From the NCBI GenBank assembly GCA_026708305.1, contig JAPOVD010000005.1, positions 1 to 64,000 on the forward strand: 64,000 nt of DNA. The letters run 5' to 3'. The notes beneath the pieces are model-generated. The model saw only the letters and a list, made by a program, of their open reading frames with translations. It ran no database searches and had not been told where the DNA came from. A program made the position numbers and the translations under genes. This document shows positions 3,059-63,892 of the stretch, in pieces. Within the stretch, counting starts at the first letter, position 1, and every line of letters begins with the position of its first letter. Source of the stretch: Nitrososphaerota archaeon (lineage in GTDB: Archaea; Thermoproteota; Nitrososphaeria; Nitrososphaerales; Nitrosopumilaceae).

Positions 3059-4726
3059 TTAGATATCTAATGCTTGTTGTGCATTATGAAGAATATTACT
3101 TTTAGCACATCCAGATGCTAATTCATCTCCTGCACCGCGCCTCATTAATCCTCTATAAAGACCATCCTCTAACTTAACGCCTTCTCTTTTTTCCCATTCT
3201 TCAACTGTAATAGAATATTTTTTCTGAATTCTATCTCTGTACCATTCTGGAATAACATTGAAAGCACAAAATGGTATAATTCTTAAATCTGGTGTCAAAT
3301 AATGTATATCACATCTTTGTAATCTCTCTAGATCTTCGTTGTATTTATCTTGAAAATGCATCATGCCTAAAAATAATCCTTTAACATGCCAAGATCCTAC
3401 AGAATTAAATGTCCTTTTCATAAGTATTTGTCCAAACATCTTTGCTAAATCTAGTCCAGCTGGTTGTTTCTTCTTATCTATAAAACTAGAAAGTTTTCGT
3501 ACAACTTCGAGCATTGTAAAGTATTTATTTTTTCCAGAACGTATTTCGTCTGCTTTATCTTCAAACAATTCTAACATTCCTTGTATATCACAAAATTTAG
3601 TCAACGGAATAAATTTTTTCGTTTCTTCATCTTCAAATATGTATGTACCTGCACCGCACGCAAAATGTATTGATAATTCATACTTAGGGCGTGATGAAAA
3701 AGCTTCTATCACATTTGTTAATGGCATACAACTTGGAACCGGGAACCAGTCATCTATAGTCACTTCCCCGTCAGTTTGTTCTTCTATTCTTTGAATGCAA
3801 TCAGGTATAGTGATTCTATATTTTTCACGTTCGGTTTTACCCATTCTACCAGTTAATGAAACAGGTTGAAAATTCACTGCATGTACAACATCCATGTTTT
3901 TCTGTGCATATCTGATAATTCCACCAAGTTCATGATCATTTATTGATTTAATTACAGTTGGTACGAAAACTACAGTAGTGCCAGTTTTTCTACAGCTGTC
4001 TAATGTATATGGTATTTCCCAATGGTTCTTTGGATTAGTACGAGGAGTCACACCATCGAAACTAAGATACAGATTATTGCAGCCAGCAAGTCTGACTTCT
4101 CTTGCTGCCTCTGGATCCATTGCGTGTCTGATACCATTAGTATTCATTTGTATATGATCAACGCCTTCTTCTTTCATTATTTTTATAATTTCAGTTATAT
4201 CGTCACGTAACATTGGTTCACCGCCAGTTATTTGTATTGAATTTCCAGGTATTGGACGTTCAGCACGTAGTGTTTTCATCATAGATCTTACTTGATCGTG
4301 AGATGGTTCATACATATAAGCACCTTCTAATCCTTTTTTAACATAAAAAAAGCAATACCAACAAGTTAAATCGCATCTATTGGTCACTATCATATTAGCT
4401 AATCCACTATGAGAAAGATGATTAGAACATAAACCACAATTATTCGGACATGAACATTTATCTATCATTACATTTGGTGCGTGAGTTCCTTTTCCATCCA
4501 TCCAATATGTACTAAATTTTTGATATAATTCATATGAACCAAAATAAAGTTCTTCGCATTCACCGTGAGAAGGACATACTTTTGTCATGTATACTTTTCC
4601 TTCTCTTTCAAATATCTCTGCATCCAATATCATATTACATTCAGGACATATGCTTTGAGTGAATCTAATAGTAGATTTTTTTCCTATTCTTTTAATAGAT
4701 TGATTAGAAATTTGAATTAATGCCAT
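3059..4726 (-). CDS. tes: Radical SAM tetraether lipid synthase (Tes family)
   Basis: 555 residues. Tes (MJ0619/MA_1486 family) joins two archaeal diether lipids tail to tail to make GDGT membrane lipids, using several iron-sulfur clusters. The N-terminal zinc/cluster-type region shows CPEC (27-30), CPSHG (51-55) and Cys91, 93, 97 and 100. The radical SAM cysteines are Cys118-x3-Cys122-x2-Cys125, followed by the SAM-binding TGGEP. The C-terminal part holds PFCAFN and a late cysteine (SGCAKSN). Members of this family were earlier called dihydropterin dimethyltransferases. A TATA-like element lies about 25 bases before the ATG, and a TrmB regulator is transcribed divergently. The Tes assignment is strong for an archaeon that makes GDGTs. 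Confidence 0.85.
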   Translation of the reverse strand: MALIQISNQSIKRIGKKSTIRFTQSICPECNMILDAEIFEREGKVYMTKVCPSHGECEELYFGSYELYQKFSTYWMDGKGTHAPNVMIDKCSCPNNCGLCSNHLSHSGLANMIVTNRCDLTCWYCFFYVKKGLEGAYMYEPSHDQVRSMMKTLRAERPIPGNSIQITGGEPMLRDDITEIIKIMKEEGVDHIQMNTNGIRHAMDPEAAREVRLAGCNNLYLSFDGVTPRTNPKNHWEIPYTLDSCRKTGTTVVFVPTVIKSINDHELGGIIRYAQKNMDVVHAVNFQPVSLTGRMGKTEREKYRITIPDCIQRIEEQTDGEVTIDDWFPVPSCMPLTNVIEAFSSRPKYELSIHFACGAGTYIFEDEETKKFIPLTKFCDIQGMLELFEDKADEIRSGKNKYFTMLEVVRKLSSFIDKKKQPAGLDLAKMFGQILMKRTFNSVGSWHVKGLFLGMMHFQDKYNEDLERLQRCDIHYLTPDLRIIPFCAFNVIPEWYRDRIQKKYSITVEEWEKREGVKLEDGLYRGLMRRGAGDELASGCAKSNILHNAQQALDI

Positions 4727-55412: not shown

Positions 55413-56810
55413 TTGAATAGAAAATTCGAAGTTGTAATGAACTATGCTTTAGAAAAGGGATACCAAGTACAGCCAAACATATTAGAATTGTGTGAAGTGA
55501 TCAATATTGATGAAATCAAAAATGTGATACAAAAAATAATTAATAAAAAAAAACAAAGCGATTGTATAATAACAAAAAAAGATTTTGATGAATATATAAA
55601 TGACAAAATAATAGTTCAACATGATGTTTTGTTTGATCCTACATCACAAATTGCATCAGATGAGGGAATGCATGGATATTATTCATTATTCAAAGATCGT
55701 TTTACAAAACTAAAAAAAACAATTAGTAAAAGATCAGAAATTAGTAAAATATATACAATATCAGAAATATCAAATAGTAAAAATAATACCATGATATATG
55801 TTTGTGGTTTATTATTAAAACGTGATTCTGAAAAGAAGTTTACAAGATTATTAATAGATGATTTGACAGATTCGCTTGAAATTTTAGTTTTTGAAGAAGA
55901 TGTAAAAAATATTGCAAATATGTTGCTTTTAGATCAGTTTGCTGTATTTAAAATTCAAGTTAATATTAATAAAAATATTGTTTGTAAAGATATAATATTG
56001 CCGGACATACCAAAACATAAGCATAATAGATCGAGAACTAATGCTTGCGCTGCTTTCTTATCAGATTTACATATAGGTAGTAAATATTTTATGGAGAAAG
56101 AAATAAACAATTTCATTTCATGGCTATCTAGTGATAATAATATAGCAAAAAAAATTCGTTTCATAGTAATTTCTGGAGATTTAATAGATGGTATTGGTAT
56201 TTATCCGGATCAAAAAGACGAGCTTGATTTAGACAGTATAGATAAGCAATTATACAAAGCTGTAAGTATTTTAAAAAAAATCCCTAAACATATTAAAATA
56301 TTTATAATACCTGGTAATCATGATCCTGGAAGACGAGCTTTACCACAACCAGCAATACAAAAAAAACATAAATATTTCCAGAATTGTGAGAATATATTTT
56401 TGTTAGGAAATCCATCATTAATTTCATTAAATAATGTCAAAATATTAGCATATCATGGACAAAGTATAGATGATGTAGTAAAAACAACTCCTGGAATGCA
56501 TTATAATAAACCTACTGCTGTAATGAAATTATTGTTAAGATCCAGACATTTAAGTCCTATATATGGAAGTAGGACGCCAATAGCACCTGAATCTCATGAT
56601 ATGTTAATAATTAATGAAATTCCTGATATTTTTATTACCGGTCATGTTCATATAATTGATTATGATAGTTATCGTGGAATTTTGTTAATTAATTCAGGTA
56701 CATGGCAAAAGCAAACACCATTTCAATCTAGTGTTGGTATTACACCAACTCCAGGTGTTGTGATGATTATAGATTTGAAAACATTTACAATATACCAAAA
56801 TAATTTTTAG
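55413..56810 (+). CDS. polB: DNA polymerase D small subunit DP1
   Basis: 465 residues from a TTG start. An N-terminal helical region and OB fold (about 125-200) precede the calcineurin-like phosphoesterase domain with FLSDLHIGS (Asp218, His220), SGDLIDG (255-256), PGNHDPG (about 301) and ITGHVHI. This is the proofreading 3'-5' exonuclease subunit of the family D polymerase. DP2 is encoded 4 kb further on. Confidence 0.94.
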   Translation: MNRKFEVVMNYALEKGYQVQPNILELCEVINIDEIKNVIQKIINKKKQSDCIITKKDFDEYINDKIIVQHDVLFDPTSQIASDEGMHGYYSLFKDRFTKLKKTISKRSEISKIYTISEISNSKNNTMIYVCGLLLKRDSEKKFTRLLIDDLTDSLEILVFEEDVKNIANMLLLDQFAVFKIQVNINKNIVCKDIILPDIPKHKHNRSRTNACAAFLSDLHIGSKYFMEKEINNFISWLSSDNNIAKKIRFIVISGDLIDGIGIYPDQKDELDLDSIDKQLYKAVSILKKIPKHIKIFIIPGNHDPGRRALPQPAIQKKHKYFQNCENIFLLGNPSLISLNNVKILAYHGQSIDDVVKTTPGMHYNKPTAVMKLLLRSRHLSPIYGSRTPIAPESHDMLIINEIPDIFITGHVHIIDYDSYRGILLINSGTWQKQTPFQSSVGITPTPGVVMIIDLKTFTIYQNNF

Positions 56811-56811
56811 A

Positions 56812-58041
56812 TTATAATATATCACAAAATATTGTGTCGTTTTTTAAAGTATTAATAATAGTTTGATATGATATTGAAGATGTATATTTTTTTGTTCTAC
56901 CATGAATGCCTTGACTTATTATTCTACCATTGATCATTCCAGATAGCTCTAATTCGCTTAGTATTTGTGTTACTCTTCTTTGTGTTAATTCTTTTTGGCT
57001 GATTTTTTTACAAAATTCTTTATAAATAGCATATATTTCTCCTGTATAAAATTTTTTTGCTTTTAATACTGATAAAATAAGTAATTTTTCATGTAAAGAA
57101 TATGATTTGATAGCCGTTACTTCTTTATCTTCTTCCATTTTTTTATATGCAGATTTAATGTGATATTGTTTTACCATGTTAGATTGTTCTCTTTCTGCTA
57201 TTTCTCCAGCAACCCTTAAAAGATCAATTGCACGTCGTGCATCTCCATGTTCTCTACCAGCTAACGCAGAACAAAGATTTAATGCTGAATCTTCTACAGA
57301 ATTTGGTATGAATGCTTGTTTTATTCTCTCTATTAAAATTTCTTTTAATTGATGAACATTATAATTTGGAAAAATTATTTCTTCTTCACTAAGACTACTT
57401 ATCACTCTAGGATCTAATCTTTCTTTAAATGTAAGATCATTAGATATACCTATAATTGTTAATGAGCCATGAATAATTCTTTCATTGGCTCGTGTAAGTT
57501 GATATAAAATATCTTTACCAGTTTTTGATATTAGATCAGCTAAATTATCGATCTCATCAATTACAAATACAGTATTAAAATTATTTTTAATTATGGTTTT
57601 GATTATTATATTAAACACCATACTAATTGATAATCCTGTTTTAGGTATCCAATCTTCATTATTCTGTAATGGTTTTTTTGATTTAATTCCTAATTGAGAA
57701 CCCAAACTAACTAAAAGACCATATAATGTCATTTCGTCCTTCGAATTAGTATAAACAAGTTTAATTGGAAATTTATTAGTTTTAATATTATCTATTATTA
57801 ATTTTAGAATTTTTTTTACAACCAATGTTTTACCAGTACCTGGTTTTCCATAAATCAATAAATTTGATGGTCTTGATCCTTTTAAAATTGGCGATAATGA
57901 TTGTAAAACTTTTTCTTGTTCATCTTGTCTATGTAATATATTATCTGGAAAATAAGAAAAATGTAAAACATTACGATCTTTAATTAATGTTTTTCCATTT
58001 TTTATTGAATTTAACAAATTTTTTAAATGATCATCAAACAT
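56812..58041 (-). CDS. orc1: Orc1/Cdc6 replication initiator
   Basis: About 409 residues from the ATG at 58041; ATG at 58050 is the alternative. AAA+ core with Walker A YGKPGTGKT (about 65-72) and Walker B FVIDEID (about 160-165), sensor/arginine motifs (EHGDARRAIDLLR), and a C-terminal winged helix that binds origin DNA (YTGEIYAIYKEFCKKIS, RRVTQILSELELSGMI). It sits directly beside the origin repeats, as expected for an initiator that binds them. Confidence 0.94.
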   Translation of the reverse strand: MFDDHLKNLLNSIKNGKTLIKDRNVLHFSYFPDNILHRQDEQEKVLQSLSPILKGSRPSNLLIYGKPGTGKTLVVKKILKLIIDNIKTNKFPIKLVYTNSKDEMTLYGLLVSLGSQLGIKSKKPLQNNEDWIPKTGLSISMVFNIIIKTIIKNNFNTVFVIDEIDNLADLISKTGKDILYQLTRANERIIHGSLTIIGISNDLTFKERLDPRVISSLSEEEIIFPNYNVHQLKEILIERIKQAFIPNSVEDSALNLCSALAGREHGDARRAIDLLRVAGEIAEREQSNMVKQYHIKSAYKKMEEDKEVTAIKSYSLHEKLLILSVLKAKKFYTGEIYAIYKEFCKKISQKELTQRRVTQILSELELSGMINGRIISQGIHGRTKKYTSSISYQTIINTLKNDTIFCDIL

Positions 58042-58128
58042 AGACACCATAATTTCATATTAAATTGATAAAGAATTAATTAATTTGTTTAGAATTTTTT
58101 ATTAATATGGTAATTTTTTTTAAGAAAA

Positions 58129-58149
58129 TTCACTTGAAATAATGGTGTG
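58129..58149 (+). promoter_or_regulatory. ORB-like element 1
   Basis: TTCACTTGAAATAATGGTGT: the CACTTGAAA-type half resembles the mini-ORB core and the GGTGT resembles the G-rich end. It is in the opposite orientation to elements 2 and 3. Confidence 0.65.
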
Positions 58150-58201
58150 TGAGTAGTTAACTATTGTGAACTTAAGTTAATTATACTATAATAAAACTAT
58201 T

Positions 58202-58225
58202 AAACACCTTTATTTCTACTCCGGA
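58202..58225 (-). promoter_or_regulatory. ORB-like element 2
   Basis: Reading the minus strand gives GGAGTAGAAATAAAGGTGTT. It shares GAAATA-x-x-GGTGT with the other two elements. Confidence 0.65.
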
Positions 58226-58262
58226 TTTCAAATTTCCAAGTTAACATAGTTAAAATTTATAA

Positions 58263-58285
58263 TAACACCTCTATTTCCATTCCAA
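58263..58285 (-). promoter_or_regulatory. ORB-like element 3
   Basis: The minus strand reads GGAATGGAAATAGAGGTGTT, the closest of the three to the archaeal consensus (TGGAAA then G-rich). It lies 61 bases from element 2 in the same orientation. Confidence 0.65.
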
Positions 58286-58334
58286 GAAGGATTTTCTACA
58301 TATTTTTAATTGATTTTTTTTTACTGTTAATAAT

Positions 58335-58390
58335 TTTGTTAATATTAAGAAGAATCTGGCTCAATATTAACAAACTAATTTGTTAACAAA
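58335..58390. repeat. TTTGTTAA dyads in the origin
   Basis: TTTGTTAATATT (58335-58346) and its perfect inverse AATATTAACAAA (58363-58374) are followed by the perfect palindrome TTTGTTAACAAA (58379-58390). GTTAAC also occurs at 58156 and 58240. The set could bind an initiator or a DNA-binding protein, or help DNA open. Confidence 0.7.
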
Positions 58391-58438
58391 TATAGTTTAA
58401 ACATTTCAAGTGTTAATAATAATGTTTAGTATTAAATT

Positions 58439-58825
58439 ATGGTGGAAAAACGTTTTAGGATGGATTTAAAAGATGATAAAGGTGTTAAGTATAATTTTAA
58501 TATTGAAGGAGAAATAACAAAAGATAAAATCATCAAAGTTTTTGAATTAATGGAATTGTTAAATTTACAACAAGAAAAAACTAAAATTAAATTAGATTCA
58601 ATTGGGTCTAAAATTTGGAATATAATTTATAAATATTTTTTTACTATGAGTTTTACTTCCACAATGATTTTAGAGAAATTTGAAGATGAATATGATCAAC
58701 CAATTAAACTTAGTATCATTTCTACTTATTTACTCCGTTTTGTTAATAAAGGTAAAATAACACGCTCAAAATCTGGTAGAGAATGGAGTTATAAAATAAA
58801 AACGTTAACTACAATGAATTCATAA
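58439..58825 (+). CDS. Small winged-helix-like protein beside the origin
   Basis: 128 residues. The N-terminal 30 residues are charged. The C-terminal half (about 60-122) looks like a winged helix: FTSTMILEKFEDEYDQPIKLSIISTYLLRFVNKGKITRSKSGREWSYKIK, with a wing ending in an aromatic strand. It starts at the edge of the origin repeats (58439), which also overlap its promoter region. Function unknown; an origin- or DNA-linked role is inferred from place only. Confidence 0.6.
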   Translation: MVEKRFRMDLKDDKGVKYNFNIEGEITKDKIIKVFELMELLNLQQEKTKIKLDSIGSKIWNIIYKYFFTMSFTSTMILEKFEDEYDQPIKLSIISTYLLRFVNKGKITRSKSGREWSYKIKTLTTMNS

Positions 58826-59296
58826 AACTTGTTTTCCTTTTTTTGTTATAAAATAATTAAATGGTCTAGATTTGGTATTTCGATTTACATATCCATTTTC
58901 GTATAGATTTTTCATTAATCTTGCTACATGTTCTCTTGTTTTTTTAATTGCTTTTTGAATATCACGTGATGTAAGTGATTTATCATTTAATAATCCTAAA
59001 ATTTCTAATAATGTAGTGTTTTCAATTAAATTTGAATTACTATGTTGCGTCAATATTGCGTGAGTAGTTTGTTTTTTTGGATTAAACACTTGTAATTCAG
59101 TATTTTGAAAATTTAATAAATTAAATTGCATGTCTAAATCCAATAATTTTTGTTCGTAAAATTCTAATTTGGAAAAAATATCATTACGAATTTTGGTTAT
59201 ATTTTTATGAATTAAATGATTAATAATTATTAAAATAATTATCATAGTTATAGCTAACATCATAAATAATAATATTAATTGATTAAAATCAATCAT
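58820..59296 (-). CDS. Membrane-anchored winged-helix protein
   Basis: 158 residues. One N-terminal membrane helix (about 7-28: ILLFMMLAITMIIILIIINH) is followed by a coiled-coil-like segment (30-70), then a C-terminal winged helix (about 95-158: LEILGLLNDKSLTSRDIQKAIKKTREHVARLMKNLYENGYV). The layout would tether DNA to the membrane or sense envelope state. TATA-like element at about 59319-59329. It overlaps the convergent neighbour by 6 bases. Confidence 0.65.
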   Translation of the reverse strand: MIDFNQLILLFMMLAITMIIILIIINHLIHKNITKIRNDIFSKLEFYEQKLLDLDMQFNLLNFQNTELQVFNPKKQTTHAILTQHSNSNLIENTTLLEILGLLNDKSLTSRDIQKAIKKTREHVARLMKNLYENGYVNRNTKSRPFNYFITKKGKQVL

Positions 59297-59351: not shown

Positions 59352-59711
59352 TTATAACAATTTTGTTTGTTTAATCAATTGATTTATCACAAGAATAATT
59401 TTATCAATATCCATAATTTGATTTGAGTATTTAATTAGAGATACTTGTTTTGCTAATTTTAAAATAATATTAATTGTTTTTTCATCAATAATTTCAAAAC
59501 AAGAGAGAAGTAACATTGTATGTTGTAATCGATTTAATTTTATTCGTATTTGTTTTACTTGTCTGTAATATGCTCCTGATGTTATAGGTAATCTTGTCTT
59601 CTCTTTTTTTCTCTCATTTAAAATTATTTCAAATTGCCGTTGTGTTAATTGTGATTTTTTTATTAATTCTGTAATTATATCATTAAATTTATTTATTTTT
59701 TTGTTTGTCAT
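59352..59711 (-). CDS. Small HTH-like protein under a palindromic operator
   Basis: 119 residues from the ATG at 59711 (alternative ATG at 59720). Basic, all-helical. LTQRQFEIILNERKKEK and SGAYYRQVKQIRIKLNRLQHTMLLLSCFEII suggest a helix-turn-helix or similar DNA-binding protein. The start codon lies at the end of a perfect 10-bp inverted repeat, with TATA just upstream. Autoregulation is likely. It sits between the origin and GGGP synthase. Confidence 0.6.
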   Translation of the reverse strand: MTNKKINKFNDIITELIKKSQLTQRQFEIILNERKKEKTRLPITSGAYYRQVKQIRIKLNRLQHTMLLLSCFEIIDEKTINIILKLAKQVSLIKYSNQIMDIDKIILVINQLIKQTKLL

Positions 59712-59733
59712 ACTATACATATTTGTATAGTAT
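59710..59733. promoter_or_regulatory. Perfect palindromic operator
   Basis: ATACTATACA-tatt-TGTATAGTAT: 10-bp perfect arms with a 4-base spacer (59710-59719, 59724-59733). It covers the transcription start and start codon of the minus-strand gene, and lies just downstream of its TATA (about 59731-59742). A repressor bound here would block transcription. Confidence 0.7.
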
Positions 59734-59772: not shown

Positions 59773-60525
59773 ATGAATAATAATATTCAAAATAAATTAT
59801 TAGAAGAGTTAAAATATAAAAAAACAATAGTGTTTGTTTTAATTGATTCTGAAAACATGGATATAAATTTGGCAGTTAATTGTGCAAAACACTCTGAATT
59901 TATTGGTGTTTCTGCCATCTTAATAGGAGGTTCATCTGTTATTGATCAATTAGAGATGATAAAATTAGTTGGTGAATTAAAAAAAAACACATCAATACCG
60001 ATAATACTATTTCCAGGTAATATAACCGGAGTTATTCCTGGAGCTGATGCAATTTTATTTACATCTCTTTTAAATTCTGAAAACCCATATTTTATTTCGA
60101 AAGCACAAGCTCTTGCTGCTCCAACAATATTGAAATTTAATCTTGAACCTTTATCAACTGCATATATAATAATTGGAACTGGAACTACAGCTGAATTTAT
60201 AGGCTCAGCAAAAGGGATCCCATTTAAAAAAAATAAATTAGCTGCAGCATATGCATTAGCAGCAAAATTTTTTGGTATGAAATTTGTTTACCTTGAAGCT
60301 GGCTCTGGAGCTAATACTACTGTATGCCCAGAAATGGTGAAAGAAGTTAAGAAAATATTTAATGGCGTTCTAATTGTAGGAGGTGGTATCAATGATTATA
60401 TTACTGCAAAGAAGTTATCTGATGCTGGTGCAGACATACTAGTAATTGGCACATTATTAGAAAAAAAAAATAATTTTGATGAACTAAAAAAAATCGTAAA
60501 TGTTATAAATGGAAAGAAATTCTAA
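59773..60525 (+). CDS. ggps: Geranylgeranylglyceryl phosphate synthase
   Basis: 250 residues, TIM-barrel prenyltransferase. It joins glycerol-1-phosphate and geranylgeranyl diphosphate, the first committed step of archaeal lipid synthesis. Motifs: VLIDSEN near the N-terminus, GVSAILIGGSS, IPIILFPGNITGVIPGADAILF, and YLEAGSGANTT and VGGGINDYITAKKLSDAGADILVIGT. It overlaps DP2 by 17 bases, so replication and lipid genes share a transcript. Confidence 0.92.
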   Translation: MNNNIQNKLLEELKYKKTIVFVLIDSENMDINLAVNCAKHSEFIGVSAILIGGSSVIDQLEMIKLVGELKKNTSIPIILFPGNITGVIPGADAILFTSLLNSENPYFISKAQALAAPTILKFNLEPLSTAYIIIGTGTTAEFIGSAKGIPFKKNKLAAAYALAAKFFGMKFVYLEAGSGANTTVCPEMVKEVKKIFNGVLIVGGGINDYITAKKLSDAGADILVIGTLLEKKNNFDELKKIVNVINGKKF

Positions 60526-63500
60526 AATATTCACATATATAAACGCAAGGAATATACCAAAATTTTATGTTGGTTATTATACTAACATTATAGAACAATT
60601 ATTTCAAAATTTTGAGATTTCAGCAAGTGCAAAATCAACATTAATTGACTCATCAGGTGTAATAGAATCTAAAATAGCATTTGATCTAGCTGATAGAGTT
60701 GCTAAAATGCATGATATTGATATTGCAGACACATTAAGAAACCTTTTAAAAAAAAAAGGTAAAGAACTATCTGCATTAGAAATTGCCGAAGATATAGTGT
60801 TAGGGAAATATATTGCACCAAACACAACAAAACAAAAAAAACTTGAATTAGCTATACGTGTAGGCCTCTCAATAGTTACTGAAGGTGTTACAATAGCTCC
60901 ACTACAAGGAATCCATGAGGTAACAATAAAAAAAAATAAAGATGATTCTGAATACCTATCAGTATCTATAGCTGGACCTATAAGATCTGCAGGGGGTACA
61001 GAATCTGCAGTTACAATATTAATTGCAGACTATATTAGAAAAGCTGCAGGATTATCAAAATATGAAGCTAATTCATTTGATGATGAAACAGGGAGATTTG
61101 TGGAGGAGCTCAGAATTTATGAGAGTGAAGCTCAAGGAAACTTCCAATTTCATGTATCTGATGAAGATATTACAAAAGTTATTTCAAATTTACCAGTAGA
61201 ACTAGCAGGCGTAGATACAGATCCATTTGAAGTAGTTAATCATAAAAACATGATACGTATAAAGACAAATCGTGTTAGAGGGGGCGCATTACGAGTTCTT
61301 AATGATGGGTTAATAGGAAGAGCAAAAAAACTACAAAAAAGAATAGAATTATACAAACTCGATGGTTGGGACTGGCTTAACGATCTTAAAGGCGCAATAC
61401 AAACAACTGATAAAACTGATTCGTCTACAAAAAGAATGAAAGAAGTCATTGCTGGCAGATCTGTGCTCTCTACCCCTAATAATATTGGAGGGTTTCGGCT
61501 AAGATATGGCCGCGCATGCAACACCGGATTCACAGCTGTAGGTATACACCCTGTGTTGGCAGAAATTTTGGAAAATTCAATTGTTGCTGGAACACAAATT
61601 AAAATGAATATTCCTGGAAAAGGAGCAACAATTGCGTTTGTAGATTCTATTGAACCGCCTATAATAAAACTTCGAAATGGTAATGTGATTAAAGTTCAAA
61701 ATATTGATCAGGCAATAAAGATAAAAAACAACATTGAAAAAATTATTTACCTAGGTGATATTTTAATATCTTTTGGTGACTTTATAGAAAATAATGCAAA
61801 ACTAATACCAACAGGTTATGTTGAAGAATATTGGAATGCTGAACTACATGAAATGTTAAATAATTCTGAAATCATAAAACATAACATAAATAAATTTCTT
61901 GAACAAACACCAACCTTACAAGAATCTATTGACATGTCCATCAATTTTGGGATTCCATTACACCCAAAATATTTGTATTATTGGGATCAAATAAAAATTG
62001 ATGATTTATACAAACTATTAAAACCAATAAAAATACAAAATAATGAAATATTATATGATCGTAGTAATAAAAACATATTAGAAAAATTAGGTGTACCGCA
62101 TGTATTAACAGAAAAACACATCTCTATAGTAGGACTGGATAAAGATATTTTGTATACTTTGTTATTTAGAAAAAACATTGTTTTTAATTCTAATTCTGTA
62201 GTAAAAATATTATCTAATTCATCAGGAATCAAAATCTGTAATAAATCATCAACAACTATAGGTGTTAGGATAGGACGCCCAGAAAAAGCGTCTATTCGTA
62301 AAATGAAACCACCAATCCATGTCATATTTCCAACAGGTGGAGTAGGTGGTGTTTCTAGAGATATATGTAAAGCTTCACAAAAAGAAAACTTCCATACTAT
62401 AATACATAATAAAATATGTTCACAATGTAATAACATATCAATTGGTATAAAATGTAAAAAATGTAATAATAAAACTAAAATCATATACTCATGTACTTTA
62501 TGTAAAATACATAATGCAACTAACATATGTAAAAAATGTAAAAAACAATGCGTTGTATACTCTAACAACTATTTTTCACTTAAAAAAGAATTATTAGCAA
62601 TACAAAAAACTATGGGAATTCGCGTTAAAAAACCACTCAAAGGTGTTAAAGAATTAATTGGACAAAATAAGGTAGCTGAACCACTGGAAAAAGGATTAAT
62701 TAGACAAAACTTAGATCTAACAGTATTTAGAGACGGTACAATTAGATTTGATTCCACTAATTCTCCATTAACTCATTTCAAACCAAAATGGATAAATGTT
62801 AGTACATCCATTCTTAAAAAACTTGGGTATGAAAAAGATATAGAAAATAAACCATTAACAAATTCCAATCAAATAATAGAATTACGTATACAGGATGTTA
62901 TAATTCCATATGAATGTGGAAAATCATTAATGAAGATATCCAAATATATAGATATAGAATTAGAAAAACTATATAAAAAAAACACATTTTACAATATATC
63001 TAATGTTTATGATCTTATAGGGCATTTAATAGTTGGTTTGGCGCCACATACTTCTGTAGGCATAATTGGAAGAATAATTGGATTTACGAAAACACATACA
63101 TGCTTCGCCACTCCTAATTGGCATTCTGCTAAGCGTAGAGATGCTGACGGCGATGCAGATTCAATAATATTACTTATGGATGTATTATTAAATTTCTCTA
63201 AAAATTTTTTATCTGATAAAATTGGTGGTTTGATGGATGCACCATTATTAATACAACCATTAGTAGTCCCACATGAATCACAATCACAAGCACATAATTT
63301 AGAAATAGTAAAAAAATATCCAATATCGTTTTTTAGATCGACTATAAAAAAACAAAAAGCTACAGATGTTAAATCTGTTGAATTAATAAAATCAAAACTA
63401 GATACGGAAAAACAGTTTTATGGATACCATTATACTCATGATACCTCTATATTGAATGTATCAAAATCTCGTAGTGCATATACTTCATTAAACTCGATGT

Positions 63501-63892
63501 TGGATAAATTTGATCTACAAATACGAAATGCTAATATAATAAATTCTATTGACACTGACGAAATGATATCTAATTTGATAACAACTCACATTATACCTGA
63601 CATAATGGGCAATCTTAGAGCTTACACAACACAAAAATTTAGATGTACATCTTGTGGTAAAAAATATAGGAGAGTCCCGCTTTTTTTTTATTGTAATTGT
63701 GGAAATAACTTAATTCAAACTATAACAAGATCTACTGTAGAAAAGTATCTTTCCTTCGCGATTAGACTAGCAAACAAATATTCAGTCAGCCCATACATTA
63801 AAAATAGAATATCTACATTATCAGAAGAGATAGATTTTATTTTTGGGCATAAAAATAACATACAATCTATTATTTCAGATTTTATAAAATAA
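60509..63892 (+). CDS. polC: DNA polymerase D large subunit DP2
   Basis: 1127 residues, catalytic subunit of the archaeal family D replicative polymerase, with a two-barrel active site. Motifs: SIAGPIRSAGGTESAV near 152-167, the zinc-finger cysteine cluster at about 635-690, the catalytic aspartates in RRDADGDADS (878-884), and a C-terminal zinc module (CTSCGKKYRRVPLFFYCNCG). No intein is seen. Full length for the family. Confidence 0.95.
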   Translation: MERNSKIFTYINARNIPKFYVGYYTNIIEQLFQNFEISASAKSTLIDSSGVIESKIAFDLADRVAKMHDIDIADTLRNLLKKKGKELSALEIAEDIVLGKYIAPNTTKQKKLELAIRVGLSIVTEGVTIAPLQGIHEVTIKKNKDDSEYLSVSIAGPIRSAGGTESAVTILIADYIRKAAGLSKYEANSFDDETGRFVEELRIYESEAQGNFQFHVSDEDITKVISNLPVELAGVDTDPFEVVNHKNMIRIKTNRVRGGALRVLNDGLIGRAKKLQKRIELYKLDGWDWLNDLKGAIQTTDKTDSSTKRMKEVIAGRSVLSTPNNIGGFRLRYGRACNTGFTAVGIHPVLAEILENSIVAGTQIKMNIPGKGATIAFVDSIEPPIIKLRNGNVIKVQNIDQAIKIKNNIEKIIYLGDILISFGDFIENNAKLIPTGYVEEYWNAELHEMLNNSEIIKHNINKFLEQTPTLQESIDMSINFGIPLHPKYLYYWDQIKIDDLYKLLKPIKIQNNEILYDRSNKNILEKLGVPHVLTEKHISIVGLDKDILYTLLFRKNIVFNSNSVVKILSNSSGIKICNKSSTTIGVRIGRPEKASIRKMKPPIHVIFPTGGVGGVSRDICKASQKENFHTIIHNKICSQCNNISIGIKCKKCNNKTKIIYSCTLCKIHNATNICKKCKKQCVVYSNNYFSLKKELLAIQKTMGIRVKKPLKGVKELIGQNKVAEPLEKGLIRQNLDLTVFRDGTIRFDSTNSPLTHFKPKWINVSTSILKKLGYEKDIENKPLTNSNQIIELRIQDVIIPYECGKSLMKISKYIDIELEKLYKKNTFYNISNVYDLIGHLIVGLAPHTSVGIIGRIIGFTKTHTCFATPNWHSAKRRDADGDADSIILLMDVLLNFSKNFLSDKIGGLMDAPLLIQPLVVPHESQSQAHNLEIVKKYPISFFRSTIKKQKATDVKSVELIKSKLDTEKQFYGYHYTHDTSILNVSKSRSAYTSLNSMLDKFDLQIRNANIINSIDTDEMISNLITTHIIPDIMGNLRAYTTQKFRCTSCGKKYRRVPLFFYCNCGNNLIQTITRSTVEKYLSFAIRLANKYSVSPYIKNRISTLSEEIDFIFGHKNNIQSIISDFIK

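Follow-up and report, generated by a model that had tools for sequence, protein, structure and literature searches.

Introduction

Sulfolobus oriC1 is arranged as ORB2-DUE-ORB3 and is served by Orc1-1. It also carries an essential motif, ucm, which is bound by UBP, a 111-amino acid protein that binds DNA via beta-hairpins and contacts MCM (PMC12141716). Closer to the genome studied here is N. maritimus, whose single chromosomal origin was mapped in vivo by marker frequency by Pelve et al. in 2013, as cited in two papers (PMC4010727, PMC5333045). By analogy with N. maritimus, a study of another thaumarchaeal genome put the origin at ORB repeats beside a cdc gene (PMC5797428). Cumulative GC skew in N. 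limnia gave no obvious origin (PMC3043068). For the ORB itself, a published expression for Methanomicrobia (Ori-Finder 2/DoriC) reads TCCA[GC]T[GT]GAAA[CT][AG]A[AT]GGGGT (PMC4164010).

The locus described here lies in the window, a stretch of 64,000 nucleotides that makes up the first 64 kb of C9, a contig of 138 kb. The genome is a MAG of 836,782 bp in 9 contigs, 95.5% complete, and the host is a reduced, sponge-type ammonia-oxidising archaeon. A scan of named genomes with Orc1 returned a sole relative, Nitrosopumilaceae MAG WTHC01000027.1, with an Orc1 that is 87% identical. Positions 58044-58438 of the window are very probably where chromosome replication begins, an origin of the archaeal ORB/Orc1 type (oriC1 class). 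The assignment is based on the layout of the sequence, the conservation of that layout, and a skew turning point, from which the origin would be an active one. An origin of this type beside orc1 is ordinary and expected. The lead to follow is a second box within it, together with a candidate protein.

Genes around the origin

The gene order is PolD-DP1, orc1, the intergenic region, ORF128, a 158-amino acid gene, a 122-amino acid gene, PcrB-family/GGGP synthase, and PolD-DP2, with the following positions in the window.

55413-56810, plus strand: DNA polymerase D small subunit DP1, neighbour gene (Pfam)
56812-58050, minus strand: orc1/cdc6 initiator gene (Pfam Cdc6_lid and Cdc6_C; TIGR02928)
58439-58825, plus strand: ORF128, gene for a winged-helix protein by predicted fold and homologue searches, divergent from orc1
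58820-59296, minus strand: gene for a 158-amino acid protein, convergent with ORF128
59352-59720, minus strand: 122-amino acid gene beside the origin cluster
59773-60525, plus strand: PcrB-family/GGGP synthase gene, neighbour of the origin cluster
60509-63892, plus strand: DNA polymerase D large subunit DP2, neighbour gene (Pfam)

Genes for PolD subunits, identified by Pfam, thus lie on both sides of the orc1/ORF128 locus. Orc1 scores 352 bits against a TIGR02928 cut-off of 181, and among solved structures it comes nearest to archaeal Orc1, in 2qby_A (E ~1e-77) and 2v1u_A (E ~1e-74). The 158-amino acid protein has a hydrophobic segment at its N-terminus and a winged helix, with a weak TrmB-type match, at its C-terminus. 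The 122-amino acid gene has no match in Pfam or NCBIfam. In the sister MAG G001 the assembly breaks within the origin, with contig C13 (1-3025) beginning just upstream of ORB4 and contig C30 (1-324) beginning inside ORF128.

Four ORBs and an AT-rich gap

The intergenic region contains four ORBs, an AT-rich gap, and a group of boxes of a second kind.

58044-58056, minus strand: ORB1, GAAATTATGGTGT, overlapping the first ATG of orc1, with its G-end directed into orc1
58136-58148, plus strand: ORB2, GAAATAATGGTGT(GTG), with its G-end directed at the AT-rich gap
58149-58203: AT-rich gap between ORB2 and ORB3, 55 bp and 80% A+T, a candidate unwinding element that holds the boxes GTTAAC, TGTGAA, and GTTAA
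58204-58216, minus strand: ORB3, GAAATAAAGGTGT, facing back to orc1
58217-58264: spacer of 48 bp between ORB3 and ORB4, with the box pair TTAACTATGTTAAC on the minus strand (family consensus TTAACANTGTTAAC)
58265-58277, minus strand: ORB4, GAAATAGAGGTGT, 61 bp from ORB3 and facing back to orc1
58325-58416: TGTTAA box group on the ORF128 promoter side, with boxes at 58325, 58337, 58367, 58381/58383, and 58411, and including a dyad and a palindrome

An earlier note on this DNA had described three near-identical 13-mers here as ORB-like elements. These exist as described, as ORB2, ORB3, and ORB4, and the count falls short by one, ORB1 having been overlooked. Across the whole 836,782-bp genome, the only exact matches to GAAATARWGGTGT are ORB2, ORB3, and ORB4, all within 142 bp; the reversed-pattern control gives 1. 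With one mismatch allowed, there are 13 matches in the genome against 21 for the control, and the sole extra one nearby is ORB1. The polarity of ORB2 opposes that of ORB3 and ORB4 across the gap. The longest orc1 frame opens with MVSMFDD inside ORB1 (58039-58050). Because its first ATG falls within ORB1, the true start of orc1 is probably the second ATG, codon 4, at 58041.

Conservation of the ORBs

The 13-mer was sought upstream of orc1 in 29 family relatives. The four-ORB layout recurs among these Nitrosopumilaceae, with the orc1-proximal equivalent of ORB1 seen in nearly all of them, so that the conservation next to orc1 that the earlier note had named as a check is found in the family. The core, GAAA[CT], has four copies at the locus and is conserved in the family and the order. 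A pattern for the tandem ORB3/4 pair has hits in 143 of 200 family genomes (98 of 119 among the good ones) and none with the reversed control, and the pair adjoins orc1 in every matching genome for which the position of orc1 is known. In other families of the order, the ORB has the canonical form CTCCAGTGGAAATAAAGGGGT and the spacing is also ~61 bp.

The G-end is GGTGT in all four ORBs of the window, and the earlier note took this as a shift of the whole set. The relatives show otherwise. Their ORB1/2 mostly end in GGTGT(GTG), and their ORB3/4, about CTGGAGTGGAAATAAAGGGGT, carry GGGGT in nearly all cases; within the list of family pairs, GGTGT at both members of the pair is confined to two genomes, those of the window's genus. 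Judged from these alignments, GGTGT in ORB1/2 is an old feature, and ORB3/4 alone underwent a recent G-to-T change from GGGGT, in the window's genus only. The change occurs in an A+T-rich reduced genome. ORB function may be weakened in this genus, because its ORBs have lost the 5' ACGCCTGGA extension and end in GGTGT throughout. Substitutions in Orc1 that might have changed together with GGTGT were sought, and 13 columns are specific to the genus, roughly half of which fall at residues 84-148, with no obvious DNA contact among the 13.

Nucleotide skew

Uncorrected curves of GC, purine, and keto skew along C9 do not turn at 58 kb, in agreement with the result from N. limnia. The skew was then corrected by using fourfold-degenerate sites only and subtracting the mean skew of each gene orientation. 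Corrected T-A skew on C9 forms a single V, with its minimum at ~54.5 kb, within 4 kb of the ORBs. The value at the ORBs is within 1% of the minimum (-359 against -356) and rises beyond, and none of 5000 gene permutations reaches the V (p<1/5000). Fourfold-site GC skew on C9 gives no signal. These curves cover a 138-kb contig of a 9-contig MAG and are not whole-chromosome curves. The skew inflection expected by the earlier note is therefore absent from raw GC skew and present in the orientation-corrected fourfold T-A skew.

Two complete genomes show the same turning point. G020 was sampled at 20 x 20 kb, and contrasts were compared over every rotation of the circle at 10-kb intervals. The T-A residual and the G-C residual both change over at its orc1/ORB locus, where the arm contrast is largest (T-A 0.330, G-C -0.255, p<=0.0005); the T-A contrast of 0.333 at 1,230,000 lies, on the circle, 2 kb from position 0 (0.330). 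In G018 the T-A arm contrast is likewise largest at the orc1/ORB locus (0.111, p<=0.0005). For the window locus, strand-corrected T-A skew at fourfold sites locates the turning point even in a fragmented MAG.

The leading strand of G020 is C- and T-rich at fourfold sites, with a GC sign opposite to the usual bacterial pattern, and the GC sign of G018 is weakly the other way. Because the G-C sign differs between relatives, skew by itself cannot separate an origin from a terminus. What marks the locus as an origin rather than a terminus is the presence of orc1 and the ORBs, together with the fact that N. maritimus has a single, mapped origin. Taken with the conserved 13-mers, the corrected skew supports the earlier note's placement of an origin with ORB-like elements beside orc1.

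A second origin motif

When relatives are aligned on their ORBs, a second motif comes to light. The spacer between ORB3 and ORB4 holds the fixed element TTAACANTGTTAAC, the gap between ORB2 and ORB3 holds three boxes (CTTAACA..TTAACA..TGTTAA), and the ORF128 side holds a GTTAAC pair, conserved as GTTAAC-N~12-GTTAACATTGACTGCCTA. The window retains all of these in slightly eroded versions.

In DNA of 81% A+T, inverted repeats are weak evidence when taken alone. Those listed by the earlier note are real, and their interest comes from the TGTTAA boxes that they contain or overlap, whose positions are conserved in relatives. Its dyad has arms at 58329-58349 and 58360-58380 (21 nt, 86%); its inverted CACTTGAAAT pair lies at 58131-58140 and 58403-58412; and its perfect palindrome of 12 bp is longer than stated, being ATTTGTTAACAAAT, 14 bp, at 58378-58391. 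TGTTAA boxes are contained in or overlapped by the dyad, the palindrome, and the second CACTTGAAAT arm. The dyad and the palindrome belong to the TGTTAA array and are not further ORBs. The CACTTGAAAT arm at 58403-58412 was considered as a fifth ORB and rejected, as the match spans 10 bp only and has no GG end.

TGTTAA is the form of the box in the Nitrosopumilaceae, where it is enriched about 10-fold. Each of 26 family origins has 5-13 boxes, with ~1 in dinucleotide shuffles (7 against 1.1 in the window). The densest cluster on C9 is the origin, with 9 boxes per 400 bp, and the next has 5. TGTGAA is often the enriched form elsewhere in the order, hence the general box TGTKAA, which is enriched (p<0.05) in 16 of the 18 genomes of the order set. 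An independent set, not used for motif discovery, consists of a further 18 genomes in which orc1 and ORF128 are adjacent and which represent other families of the phylum. The box is enriched (p<0.05) in 17 of them. When the set is pooled, TGTGAA tops a list of 1743 hexamers, with 78 occurrences where 9.4 are expected; ACCCCT and TGGAAA, which derive from the ORB, rank below it. A search of the open-access literature found no description of the TGTKAA box or of ORF128, and the box is apparently undescribed as a second origin motif.

The palindrome TTAACANTGTTAA also occurs outside the origin. In G005:C1:1092000-1101000 it lies at 3476, 3885, 4427, and 5258 of the stretch, and in a stretch of G030 at 3223, 4104, 4455, and 4645. 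These copies surround a divergent pair of genes, for a 110-amino acid winged-helix regulator and a membrane protein of 122/127 amino acids, and in G005 also a cupredoxin-like gene. They are probably operators of the 110-amino acid regulator.

ORF128 and its link to the boxes

The family of ORF128 is single-copy and was detected in 53 of 61 relatives (46 of 48 when restricted to good genomes) and in 128 of 200 genomes of the phylum. It falls in no Pfam family and has no NCBIfam match above cut-off. Wherever the two genes of an order genome share a contig or adjoin over the zero point of a circular contig, ORF128 is no more than 3 kb from orc1 (50 of 50); in other families of the phylum it is within 3.5 kb in 32 of 72 genomes. 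The protein is predicted to fold as a beta-hairpin and a helix, with a winged helix after them at residues 55-120 (pLDDT near 90 for the most part). A profile search of the PDB gives no close chain, and searches of solved structures and folds yield generic winged-helix matches only, Fur, MecI, and RosR among them. The STYLxR motif of the presumed recognition helix is invariant over 46 sequences.

The box and ORF128 are associated across the phylum, in a comparison that ignores kinship. In 10 genomes with the two genes far apart, enrichment of the box was seen upstream of orc1 in 4 and upstream of ORF128 in 1, which assigns the boxes to the origin. In genomes without ORF128 the box is enriched in 0 of 11 measurable cases, a weak control formed by other lineages, with an ORB core in the stretch analysed in four only. 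From these patterns ORF128 would bind the TGTKAA boxes. A contrary point is that the move of the box from TGTGAA to TGTTAA has no counterpart in the recognition helix, which is invariant.

Proposed working and alternatives

On established archaeal biology and by analogy with Sulfolobus oriC1, Orc1-ATP on the ORBs would recruit and load MCM in the 55-bp AT-rich gap, from which forks would depart both ways. The position of ORB1 over the orc1 start suggests that Orc1 could repress its own gene. The TGTKAA array, interleaved with the ORBs, is a component of the origin and not just of the promoter of the neighbouring gene, and its likeliest ligand would be the winged-helix ORF128. It is a fair prospect, though still a tentative one, that in much of Thermoproteota (the ammonia-oxidising archaea and many related families) the ORF128 family is a second sequence-specific origin factor besides Orc1, binding TGTKAA arrays among the ORBs and acting in origin opening, in MCM loading or release, or in timing, as a counterpart and not a homologue of Sulfolobus UBP/ucm. 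A second origin box present in much of the phylum, with a single-copy protein that tracks it, is now directly testable, and ORF128/TGTKAA is a concrete candidate.

The boxes could instead be weak extra Orc1 sites, or half-ORBs, with no second protein involved. TGTGAA is somewhat like the ORB core TGGAAA, and boxes and ORBs share one array. This reading is unlikely, as the box in its family form, TGTTAA, has moved further away from the ORB while the ORBs of the family stayed conserved, and the boxes often make a palindrome of their own, TTAACANTGTTAA. Genomes that bear Orc1 and are devoid of ORF128 are also devoid of boxes, a point tempered by the presence of the ORB core in only four of them. 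Another candidate ligand is the 110-amino acid winged-helix regulator, whose own locus bears TTAACANTGTTAA palindromes in Nitrosopumilus-type genomes, clustered around its gene and neighbours in G005 and G030 and coinciding with its gene in G015, G026, and G032. That the origin boxes are its operators is improbable: the regulator was not found in G000, G001, G020, or most order-level genomes, and the origins examined there keep their boxes. As a general binder of the box it was rejected, being absent where boxes persist.

Two further explanations dispense with an origin motif or with the origin itself. ORBs and boxes might serve only as operators of the divergent orc1 and ORF128 promoters, with Orc1 and ORF128 as regulators and replication starting elsewhere, and the overlap of ORB1 with the orc1 start and the placing of TGTTAA boxes at the ORF128 promoter agree with this. 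It is nevertheless highly improbable given the skew turning point at the locus in three genomes, the position of the ORB pair and the ORB2-ORB3 boxes away from the promoters, the presence of boxes at orc1 in 4 of 10 genomes where ORF128 is distant (at ORF128 in 1 of 10), and the single origin of N. maritimus, mapped in vivo (cited in PMC4010727). Least probable of all, to the point of being barely credible, is that low-complexity, AT-rich composition alone accounts for the enrichment. The intergenic region of the window is indeed 81% A+T, but counts in nearly all genomes exceed dinucleotide-preserving shuffles by several-fold to more than tenfold, the excess holds in relatives whose intergenic DNA is 45-59% G+C (G003, G024, and G029), and box positions are fixed relative to the ORBs.

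Comparison with known systems

The preferred reading, of an ORB/Orc1 origin with a second box and ORF128 as its candidate ligand, can be set beside the described systems. The N. maritimus origin shares with the window locus its family, its orc1 neighbourhood, and its ORB class. The window's genus, known here from sequence, differs in having GGTGT in all four ORBs and in lacking the 5' ACGCCTGGA extension. Against the Methanomicrobia expression, the order-level CTCCAGTGGAAATAAAGGGGT matches at every position but the one after GAAAT, where it has T for A/G. ORB3/4 of the Nitrosopumilaceae agree with it in their 3' half, and the family has TGGAGT where TCCAGT is expected, so that the dyad is lost; the window's genus departs further with GGTGT.

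WhiP is the winged-helix initiator of Sulfolobus oriC3. Like WhiP, ORF128 is encoded beside an origin as a winged-helix protein; compared by description, ORF128 differs in having one predicted winged helix with a short beta-hairpin and helix, and in lying beside an Orc1-type origin. Sulfolobus oriC1 and the window origin both place convergent ORBs around an AT-rich DUE and carry a second, non-ORB motif inside the DUE. That motif is ucm in Sulfolobus and the multi-copy TGTKAA box in the window. As a predicted winged helix, ORF128 has no detected relation to UBP and would be set apart from it by the beta-hairpin fold described for UBP. By analogy, ORF128 and the TGTKAA boxes could fill a role comparable to that of UBP and ucm.
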